64,000 nt of DNA from Alphaproteobacteria bacterium. Lineage in GTDB: Bacteria > Pseudomonadota > Alphaproteobacteria > Micropepsales > Micropepsaceae. Made by a program: the position numbers and the translations under genes. The DNA lies in the NCBI GenBank assembly GCA_947473475.1, contig CANJBZ010000004.1:62001-126000 (forward strand). The letters run 5' to 3'. The notes beneath the pieces were generated by a model. The model saw only the letters and a list, made by a program, of their open reading frames with translations. It searched no databases and was not told where the DNA came from. Positions 17,437 through 23,011 of the stretch are shown here, piece after piece (the first letter of the stretch is position 1; each line of letters begins with the position of its first letter).

Positions 17437-17922
17437 TTACGGGTTGCCGGCGAGCCGAAGCTCGCGGGCACGCGCAAGGATCGCGTTTTCCAGCTTGATG
17501 CCTGTGTCCGGATTGACCGCGGCGTCCGTCCAGCCATTGGCGTTCCGCGTCTGGCGGAAAACGCTGACTTTCACGGCATCGGCCCGCAGACGGCGGTCCA
17601 GGATATAGACGGTCACCTTCATATGCTCGTCGGGCTTGTCCGGCGCGGCATACCAATCGCTGATGACAACGCCGCCCACCGGATCGGCCGAAGCCAGAGG
17701 CATGAAGTTGATGGTGTCGAGGGTCGCCCGCCAGAGATAGGCGTTGACCCCGAGCTGCGGCATATCGACCGCCGTCTCGCCATCATCACCGCCAAACGGC
17801 CAGAACCACGACCCGGTGCTGGTACTTGTGGTCGCTGTGCTGGCGGCCACCATGTCGCTGGAACCGTCGGAGCTGCAAGCCGCAAGAACACAAGCGCAGG
17901 CAGCGAGGATAAGAATCCGCAT
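17437..17922 (-). CDS. DUF3576-family lipoprotein
   Basis: 161 aa with a lipoprotein signal (MRILILAACACVLAAC), then a Ser/Thr-rich linker and SWFWPFGGDD. The conserved DUF3576 core follows: VNAYLWRATLDTINFMPLASADPVGGVVISDWYAAP and VSVFRQTRNANGWTDAAVN. Expected at the outer membrane, periplasmic face. In many alphaproteobacteria this gene precedes leuS and lptE, which suggests a link to envelope biogenesis, but no function has been shown that I can name. Confidence 0.88.
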   Translation of the reverse strand: MRILILAACACVLAACSSDGSSDMVAASTATTSTSTGSWFWPFGGDDGETAVDMPQLGVNAYLWRATLDTINFMPLASADPVGGVVISDWYAAPDKPDEHMKVTVYILDRRLRADAVKVSVFRQTRNANGWTDAAVNPDTGIKLENAILARARELRLAGNP

Positions 17923-17986: not shown

Positions 17987-18006
17987 CCGAAGCCAATTGG
18001 CTTCGG
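17987..18006. terminator. 20-bp perfect palindrome, possible terminator
   Basis: CCGAAGCCAATTGGCTTCGG is self-complementary over 20 bases. A related imperfect inverted repeat (CCCAAGCC...GGCTTTGGG) lies at about 18048-18076. Both are downstream of the 18089 gene, so they may end its transcript or block read-through toward the DUF3576 gene. No long U-run follows. Confidence 0.45.
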
Positions 18007-18088
18007 CTTATAAAGAGGCGTCACGGACGGCGCAACGCCCCAAGCCCAAGCGCCGATTGGCTTTGGGCCCAGCCTTCAAACGTATGTG

Positions 18089-18712
18089 TTACTTAGGGTC
18101 AGGGCCAGCTTTGCCGGCGGCGCTGGCGCAATCGCCCGCTTCCTTCACAAACGGCCAGAACCAGCTCTTGCTGCAGGACACAGCCTGCGGCGCCGGCGCC
18201 GTTTGCGGCGCGGCCTCCTGCGAAGCAGCCCCCGATGGGGCTGGGGCTCCGGGGCCCGCAACATTTGCGCTGGCTTGCGTGATGGCGGCGACGCCACCGT
18301 AATAACCCGTCTGACCCGAACGCTTCTCAGCGGCCGTCAGACAGTCGCCAGGCTCACGCTGGAACGGCCAAAGGATACCCCTATGGCATTCGACGACGGC
18401 TTTCGTAGGAGCCACGGCTCCGAATACAGACGTCTCAATCAGCGCTCCGTCGCTACGGCTGACGCTTCCCACCGGCGCGGGGGCGCCGCTTTGCGAGGGC
18501 GCCTGAGCAGGCTTGATGGCGCTCACATCGACATTTGTGTTGGTCGGGCCGCTGTAAGCGCCCTTTTGCCCGGCAGCAATTTCGGCATCCGTCAGGCAAT
18601 CACCGGCAGCCCGCACATAGGGCCACAACATGCCCCGGGTGCAATCGGCCGCCATGGCCGAACCGCTCATGGTTACAAAGCTGACACAAGCGAGGAGAAA
18701 AACTTTACGCAT
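18089..18712 (-). CDS. Secreted protein with three Cys-WPF-GDC repeats
   Basis: 207 aa from the ATG at 18712, which starts a signal peptide (MRKVFLLACVSFVTMSGSAMA). The mature protein is three copies of one motif joined by Ala/Pro/Ser linkers: CTRGMLWPYVRAAGDC, CHRGILWPFQREPGDC and CSKSWFWPFVKEAGDC. In every copy the two Cys are exactly 15 residues apart, suggesting one disulfide per module. The first two modules continue with LT.AE...GQ.G.Y; the third ends in a charged tail. I know no named family. The gene is divergent from the porin. Extracytoplasmic location is supported; function is not. Confidence 0.72.
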   Translation of the reverse strand: MRKVFLLACVSFVTMSGSAMAADCTRGMLWPYVRAAGDCLTDAEIAAGQKGAYSGPTNTNVDVSAIKPAQAPSQSGAPAPVGSVSRSDGALIETSVFGAVAPTKAVVECHRGILWPFQREPGDCLTAAEKRSGQTGYYGGVAAITQASANVAGPGAPAPSGAASQEAAPQTAPAPQAVSCSKSWFWPFVKEAGDCASAAGKAGPDPK

Positions 18713-18833: not shown

Positions 18834-20081
18834 ATGACATTTAGAGCGAAACATATTTGGGCCGGTCGCCTGCACGCGGCCTTCTTGGCGACAGCGGCGG
18901 CCATTCTCGTGGCCAATCGCGGCGCAAGTGCGGCGGAAGAATCGCCGGGATTGCTCGATTCGCTGTCGCTGGACCCGCCCGAATGGAGCATCGGCGACGT
19001 CTCGTTCAAGCTGGGCGGCTTTGGCGGGTTTGCAGCCGGCACTCTATTCGACGTTCACCAATCCGGCGGACCGGCCTATCCCGCCTACAATCATAAAAAC
19101 AGCAGCGCCGAAGCGCGCACCAATGTCCGCGCGCAACGCATCTTCGATACCGGCTTGATCGTCGGCGCGGGTGCGGACTTCCTTCTTTACCACGACAAAT
19201 TCTCGGGTGACCAATACGACAGCGATTTCGTCGAGAAGCTTTTCTTCTTTTTTCAAACCGGATTTGGACGGATTGAAATCGGCGAGCAGGATGGCGCCGG
19301 TTACACGCTGGGGCTCTCAGGCCCGATCACGAATGAAGAGGTGACGCTCGAAAACCGGAACATTTCGCTCTTTCGCGATCCCACGACGGGCGAGGATTTC
19401 GGACAGGTTTTTCAATCCGTCACCGCCGTCCAAAGCACATCGAATTTTGCGAAGGCGGTTTATATTTCGCCGCGGCTGTTCGGCCTGCAAGCCGGCGTAT
19501 CCTTCACGCCGAACATGGTGCGCTCCCCGCTGCCTTTCACAGGCAATCCCACCAACGATCCCGGCCAGCAACAGAACATCTGGGAAATCGCCGCCAATTA
19601 TACGACCTATGTTTCCGATGTCGCCGTCGGCTTTTCGGCGGCGCTGGCGGAAGGCTCCCTCAAGAACGGGACCAACGGCGGCGACGATCTGTACGATTGG
19701 TCGGCCGGTGCGCAGGCCGCCTACACGCTGGGAGAGGTGAAACTGTCCGCAGGGGCGGGCTATCGCGAGACCAACGCGTATGGCTTCGATCCGGCGCAGG
19801 CGTTTGGGCATGGCGGAACACATTCGACGCACGTTTCCACCACAGCGGAATGGGGATCGTGGATTGCCGGACTGGAATATTCATGGAGCGAAGCGAGAGG
19901 GACGCCAAATCTCGACGTGACGGGATTCCAGGCTTCCGGCGGATACCGGCTCAACCAGAACCTTCAATTGACCGGCGGCTGGCAGTGGTACGATTACCGG
20001 CGCAATTCAGGCGTGTTCTACAACGGCTCACCAAAAATCGACATGAACGCCGCGTTCCTCGTCCTCACCTACGAACTCTGA
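18834..20081 (+). CDS. Gram-negative porin-like outer-membrane beta-barrel
   Basis: 415 aa. The N-terminus carries a signal peptide ending near ANRGASA-AE. The rest alternates aromatic and polar residues as in beta-barrels, with many Gly and Asn turns and family-like pieces such as GFGRIEIGEQDGAGYTLG, YISPRLFGLQAGVSFTP and a C-terminal strand FLVLTYEL. The last residue is Leu rather than the usual Phe. It should form a diffusion pore of the general porin type. It is divergent from the triple-repeat protein and its end overlaps the convergent ThiE-like gene by 13 bp. Confidence 0.83.
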   Translation: MTFRAKHIWAGRLHAAFLATAAAILVANRGASAAEESPGLLDSLSLDPPEWSIGDVSFKLGGFGGFAAGTLFDVHQSGGPAYPAYNHKNSSAEARTNVRAQRIFDTGLIVGAGADFLLYHDKFSGDQYDSDFVEKLFFFFQTGFGRIEIGEQDGAGYTLGLSGPITNEEVTLENRNISLFRDPTTGEDFGQVFQSVTAVQSTSNFAKAVYISPRLFGLQAGVSFTPNMVRSPLPFTGNPTNDPGQQQNIWEIAANYTTYVSDVAVGFSAALAEGSLKNGTNGGDDLYDWSAGAQAAYTLGEVKLSAGAGYRETNAYGFDPAQAFGHGGTHSTHVSTTAEWGSWIAGLEYSWSEARGTPNLDVTGFQASGGYRLNQNLQLTGGWQWYDYRRNSGVFYNGSPKIDMNAAFLVLTYEL

Positions 20082-22501: not shown

Positions 22502-23011
22502 ATGACTCTTTCCGTCAGCAAAGATGAGGCGCTCACTGCCCCTGCCGCGGTTAAGCCTGCTATGTTTGTGGGCGCCGTCAGTTTGGCGTTGCTCCTGGGG
22601 GCATGGGGCTCACAATACCTGGGCGGACTCGTCCCTTGCGAGATGTGCATCTGGCAACGATGGCCCCATGGAGCGGCGATCATCGTCGGGCTGATCGGCG
22701 GCTGGATGCTCTCTACGCGCGTACTGCCCGCAGGGACCGCCCGGACGATAACCCTCCTCGCTATCGCGGCCATCGCTGTATCGGGCGCTATCGGCATCTT
22801 CCACGCCGGCGTGGAATGGAAGTTCTGGCCCGGCCCCGACGCCTGCACCGGGGTCGGCTATGTGCCGGGGCGCGATGATGACTTTAAGGTCGTTCGTTGC
22901 GACGAAGCGCAGTGGCGGCTGTTGGGGATTTCGCTCGCCGGTTACAACGCGGTGTTCTCCCTGGCTGCGGCGGCGTTCGCTCTGGCGATGTTGCGCCGCG
23001 CCAAGGCCTGA
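22502..23011 (+). CDS. DsbB-family disulfide bond formation protein
   Basis: 169 aa, four membrane helices. It carries the quinone-side cysteine pair CEMC in PCEMCIWQRWPH and a second pair in DACTGVG...VVRCDEAQ, the arrangement used by DsbB to reoxidise DsbA and pass electrons to ubiquinone. W-Q-R after the first pair is the usual quinone-contact stretch. It lies six bases before coq7, a ubiquinone-synthesis gene, which makes functional sense. No DsbA is in the window. Confidence 0.9.
   Translation: MTLSVSKDEALTAPAAVKPAMFVGAVSLALLLGAWGSQYLGGLVPCEMCIWQRWPHGAAIIVGLIGGWMLSTRVLPAGTARTITLLAIAAIAVSGAIGIFHAGVEWKFWPGPDACTGVGYVPGRDDDFKVVRCDEAQWRLLGISLAGYNAVFSLAAAAFALAMLRRAKA

Follow-up and report, generated by a model that had tools for sequence, protein, structure and literature searches.

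The window analysed here, 64,000 nucleotides of the genome of a freshwater alphaproteobacterium, carries a gene (18089..18712, minus strand) for a putatively exported protein of 207 amino acids with three small two-cysteine modules. The locus raises the question of what these modules are, where they came from and what they might do for the cell.

A protein built of two-cysteine modules

The gene was assigned from its translation and from relatives that occupy the same position in four other species. Translation starts with an ATG at 18712, and a purine-rich, ribosome-site-like sequence, GGGGAAG, lies just 5′ of it. Residues 1–21 (18650..18712, minus strand) were recognised by eye as a putative Sec-type signal peptide, MRKVFLLACVSFVTMSGSAMA followed by AD, with a charged start, a hydrophobic core and an AMA/AD cleavage site. 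A helix is predicted within this segment, at residues 4–14, in the full-length model.

The modules begin at residues 24, 109 and 180 and are separated by Ala/Pro-rich linkers. Module 1, CTRGMLWPYVRAAGDCLTDAEIAAGQKGAYS (18551..18643), and module 2, CHRGILWPFQREPGDCLTAAEKRSGQTGYYG (18296..18388), matched the module profile with E-values of 4.8e-18 and 1.3e-18, and a fold is predicted for both. Module 3, CSKSWFWPFVKEAGDC (18107..18175; all three on the minus strand), has a shorter tail and matched at 1.0e-11; the structural model is not confident there. The cysteine pairs (24/39, 109/124 and 180/195) have a spacing of 15 in all three modules. When the mature protein was shuffled 200,000 times, not one shuffle gave even a single match to the motif. 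Translation and shuffle test thus confirm the sequence-only reading in its description of three two-cysteine copies with a 15-residue cysteine spacing, joined by Ala/Pro linkers behind a signal peptide. The motif that it proposed was right in that spacing but not in the first gap, which is C-x5-W rather than C-x3-x-W, and the Ala or Pro that it placed before GDC is not a strict rule, since relatives vary at this position. The motif is C-x5-W-P-[FY]-x4-G-D-C, followed by a short helical tail.

Prediction of the isolated module from 18 aligned modules reached a mean pLDDT of 83; it places a bridge close to the first Cys and a short strand at the other, directly followed by a short helix. The full-length AlphaFold model repeats this pattern in modules 1 and 2 at a pLDDT of about 80, and the linkers fall below 50. 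The copies had been expected to predict as similar folds; modules 1 and 2 have the same compact predicted fold, and module 3 does not reach a confident model. The linkers that join the modules are predicted to be disordered.

Six genes in five species contain 22 modules in all, with 2–8 modules per gene: three in the window, three in the relative G001, eight in G002, two in each of two tandem genes in G003, and four in G006. The G002 gene contains a tandem repeat unit of 201 nt, and one of its eight modules is a short variant, CSHSWYWPFGSGDC. Across the 21 modules of standard spacing, which come from all six genes, C1, W7, P8, G14, D15 and C16 never vary and position 9 holds either F or Y; R11 is present in 20 (the other having Lys) and E21 in 19. 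Cysteines of the mature proteins occur exclusively as module pairs, 21 with a spacing of 15 and the variant with a spacing of 13, and fixed spacing of this kind would be expected of a disulfide-closed mini-domain. Over all module pairs the pN/pS ratio comes to 0.36, which is approximate, as many of the pairs are saturated and they are not independent. The linkers align poorly between relatives, unlike the conserved module core.

The module proteins of G003 (L076, 9371–9961) and G006 (L077, 9874–10911) also have a second conserved stretch, free of cysteine and located after module 2, which reads VNLAP ... G[LM]FGLFGS ... GLLED.

Conservation bears on whether the protein could be a young, lineage-specific spacer at the surface or in the periplasm, hardly specific for a ligand, retained because of its bulk or charge, and with repeats expanded by slippage. 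Freely diverging linkers and a varying repeat number would fit a spacer, as would the occurrence of the gene in one genus only and its absence from one species of that genus (see below). Against a spacer, the W-P-[FY]/Arg/GDC core is strict and pN/pS lies below 1, which points to a specific requirement. We consider a mere spacer unlikely.

Relatives in databases and genomes

No Pfam family matched the whole module protein at E-values up to 1, and none of the 21 single modules matched Pfam at E-values up to 5. NCBIfam gave no meaningful match, the weak matches being chiefly to the signal peptide. Matches to the Shiga toxin B subunit in this database (E 0.01–0.15) covered residues 1–29, that is the signal peptide only, and had cut-offs above 160 bits; they were rejected. 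PHROGs contained no match below 0.04, the PDB no significant relative of the module by sequence or profile, and Foldseek found no fold match for the module in the PDB. Membership of DUF3576 (PF12100) was not found either, the profile match being absent from the module protein, while the neighbouring lipoprotein scores 144 bits. An EF-hand calcium-binding loop was rejected: D-x-[DNS]-x-[DNSG]-G-x-[ILV]-x3-[EDQ] is absent from the protein, and the corresponding stretch of the module, G-D-C-L-T-x-x-E, lacks the first Asp. Hevein-like and BA14K-like units resemble the modules in being short, Cys-closed and aromatic, and in being repeated or flexibly linked, but the modules match no Pfam, PDB profile or Foldseek entry. 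The earlier statement that the module belongs to no named family is thus borne out by Pfam, NCBIfam, PHROGs, PDB and Foldseek, and the modules matched no catalogued repeat family in the databases searched.

A protein search of 100 related genomes gave matches in four other species, all of the same genus. A match in G043 (E 1.9e-5) was discarded, as it contains one internal stop and the strict motif is absent from its DNA. The module profile was run against 385 genomes of the class, with up to 20 candidates per genome scored, and against 96 of the family (the same 96 genomes stand for the order). It returned only the window's genus and three weak matches, in G035, G462 and G221 (E 0.003–0.009), which are short, broken or linker-like and lack the strict motif.

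A strict DNA pattern for the module was run over 84,980 species; it has fixed spacing, so that variants spaced differently elsewhere would escape it. Four MAG records with at least two modules were recovered (REEB348, Baikal-deep-G57, RE-9nov16-174 and ErkenSummer_bin-2686), all from the same genus. The remaining matches were unrelated: single occurrences, as in a protein from Lentisphaeria that resembles membrane transporters, or stretches that were short or out of frame. A peptide-pattern scan of genome contigs with the whole protein gave no match, and the module DNA pattern recovered genomes of the same genus. Plasmids contained no match to the module pattern, and of 11 DNA pattern matches in viral contigs none lies in an open frame that would encode the motif. 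The profile and pattern searches found no gene with a single module. The suggestion that the module might also occur singly or in another context was therefore not upheld; it was seen at one locus in one genus only. Since the modules have no database relative and were found only in the window's genus, they are a real, new repeat family restricted to that genus.

The locus and its DUF3576 neighbour

In all five carrier species the module gene is followed immediately downstream by a DUF3576 lipoprotein gene of the same orientation (in the window 17437..17922, minus strand; PF12100, E 1.5e-42) and flanked on its other side by a divergent porin gene (in the window 18834..20081, plus strand). The match of the latter to PF13609 (Porin_4, E 1.3e-15) upholds the divergent porin arrangement that had been read from the sequence. 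Past the DUF3576 gene are LeuRS, LptE and a gene that we take to be HolA-like, a label of our own for a gene without a Pfam match at 1e-5. Other neighbours are ThiE, YggS-like and YgjP-like genes. Repeated two-cysteine units with flexible linkers between them might make up a precursor that is cleaved into several small disulfide peptides, in the manner of bacteriocins; but these locus neighbours are housekeeping genes, and no export, maturation or immunity gene was found beside the module gene. A peptide precursor appears very improbable.

In G004, a sixth species of the genus, the DUF3576 gene directly adjoins the porin gene and there is no module gene. In five other genera (G007, G008, G009, G011 and G012) no module-gene match was found between DUF3576 and porin. 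The genome of G005 is incomplete, its DUF3576 gene was not found, and it is uninformative on the locus. In the best trees G004 falls outside the carriers, at low bootstrap values (57 and 44), which weakly favours a branching of G004 before the gene arose over a later loss. A single gain of the module gene within the genus is thus likely.

The same comparison bears on the adjacent porin, which the module protein might plug, tether or stabilise as a dedicated partner. The two genes are divergent neighbours in five of five species, as would suit such a partner. However, the DUF3576–porin order exists without a module gene in G004 and the other genera, so the porin does not require the module protein, and the adjacency may simply mark an insertion site. 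We regard a role dedicated to the porin as improbable.

Three further features of the region were observed. Two tandem porins are present at the locus in G008, G009 and G012 (L079, L080 and L081), compared with one in the window's genus. A perfect 20-nt palindrome, CCGAAGCCAATTGGCTTCGG, lies between the module gene and DUF3576 (17987–18006) and occurs once in the window; a 16-nt stretch about 50 nt away (18052–18067) can pair with it too (88%). This palindrome was not seen in the intergenic regions of relatives, and it could be a terminator or an mRNA element. A DsbB gene (22502–23011; PF02600, E 5.4e-32) is located about 4 kb away, a proximity that is relevant to disulfides in principle and probably coincidental.

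The DUF3576 lipoprotein shares a short aromatic segment with the modules. This W-F-W-P-F-G segment (17792..17808, minus strand) is the sole match to TGGNNNTGGCCNTTYGG, the DNA pattern for W-x-W-P-F-G, in the window's genome. Seven genomes of the genus contain five occurrences of the pattern, all at the module locus: four in DUF3576 lipoproteins and one in a module of G002. The pattern in reverse, used as a control, gave six matches. The WPF echo in the neighbouring gene, pointed out by the sequence-only reading, is thus unusual at genome scale, TGGNNNTGGCCNTTYGG being confined to the locus in these seven genomes. The string SWFWPFGG does occur early in the mature part of the lipoprotein, but about 20 residues past the lipobox Cys rather than at the very start. 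The segment reads W-[FYW]-W-P-F-G in G000, G001, G002 and G003 and WDWLFG in G006, and a segment of this type is absent from the DUF3576 proteins of G004 and of the other genera compared.

At the motif, 16 of 18 bases agree between the window's module 3 and the DUF3576 gene beside it, and 17 of 18 between the variant module of G002 and the DUF3576 gene of that genome. At its 5′ end, with some of the untranslated leader included, the module gene of G001 aligns with the 5′ ends of DUF3576 genes at a score of up to 39, where the maximum among 2,105 other start sites was 30. The 5′ similarity of the other five module genes to DUF3576 was not above the controls in this test. The two proteins also differ: the module protein has neither the DUF3576 domain nor a lipobox, and DUF3576 has no cysteine pair around the motif. 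The motif and 5′ similarities would fit partial duplication or gene conversion, and would also fit selection for a common partner. A tentative scenario, possible but doubtful, is that the module gene was born in this genus as a partial copy of the DUF3576 5′ end (start, signal sequence and W-x-W-P-F-G), then acquired a cysteine pair on either side of the aromatic motif, and was multiplied into a new multivalent binding protein that has kept the partner of its parent.

A putative multivalent binder of the cell envelope

Our main reading, to which we give a probability of about 45%, is a genus-restricted, multivalent, disulfide-closed envelope-binding protein that shares a ligand or an origin with the DUF3576 lipoprotein; its export, disulfides, ligand and multivalency are putative. 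The protein would be exported by the Sec route and form 'beads on a string' in the periplasm or at the cell surface. Each bead would be a mini-domain of about 30 residues, with a loop presumably closed by a C1–C16 disulfide and displaying the invariant W-P-[FY] turn and the conserved Arg. After the loop would come a capped short helix (L-T-D-x-E) and then a G-x-[YF] tail. Because the Ala/Pro linkers between the beads are predicted to be disordered, binding would be multivalent and could be tuned by copy number, which ranges from 2 to 8. A single repeated ligand in the envelope would be the most likely target of the beads' aromatic face, candidates being a glycan of the cell wall or of LPS, or else a protein of the envelope with affinity for aromatics. 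The DUF3576 lipoprotein, with its W-x-W-P-F-G, would probably bind the same ligand or have a common sequence ancestry with the modules. Binding of the modules to a porin or envelope partner had been proposed earlier from the gene position, and is possible.

The existence of the modules, their conservation, fixed locus, restriction and change in copy number were observed directly. The conserved core next to poorly aligning linkers, the pN/pS ratio, the cysteine pairs, the single fold predicted for modules 1 and 2 between low-confidence linkers, the copy-number range with the tandem unit in G002, the fixed locus and the confinement of the W-x-W-P-F-G pattern to it count in favour of envelope binding, whereas the lack of a match to any known binding fold and the poor model outside modules 1 and 2 count against it.

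The aromatic motif could also face a chaperone. SurA, a periplasmic chaperone, prefers Ar-X-Ar and Ar-Ar sequences of outer membrane proteins (PMC11401910). A chain of W-P-[FY] motifs might mimic such clients and occupy or tune SurA-like chaperones in porin assembly, with DUF3576 bearing the same handle. The W-P-[FY] of all 21 standard modules is an Ar-X-Ar tripeptide, SurA-domain proteins are encoded in all five carrier genomes, and a porin is the divergent neighbour. Ar-X-Ar is a loose motif, however, and SurA is widespread while the module is found in one genus only. Moreover, SurA binds unfolded segments, such as the strands of unfolded beta-barrels, whereas the motif of the module is predicted to lie within a folded, probably disulfide-closed two-cysteine loop. 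Client mimicry therefore seems quite improbable to us.

The novelty of the envelope-binding protein proposed here is the module together with a visible likely birthplace, rather than a demonstrated mechanism. Relatives have 2–8 copies per gene at the same locus, and the lipoprotein has a piece of the motif, both of which suggest a recent, lineage-specific binder in the cell envelope. The case is well bounded: the exported protein is restricted to one lineage, and the place where its gene was probably born can be seen, because sister lineages keep the neighbours without the gene and the motif in one neighbour may be its source or mark a partner. The protein would bring with it a two-cysteine repeat module absent from the catalogues, and a link to DUF3576 that can be tested; the function of this domain is unknown, and it is scarcely mentioned in the literature searched.
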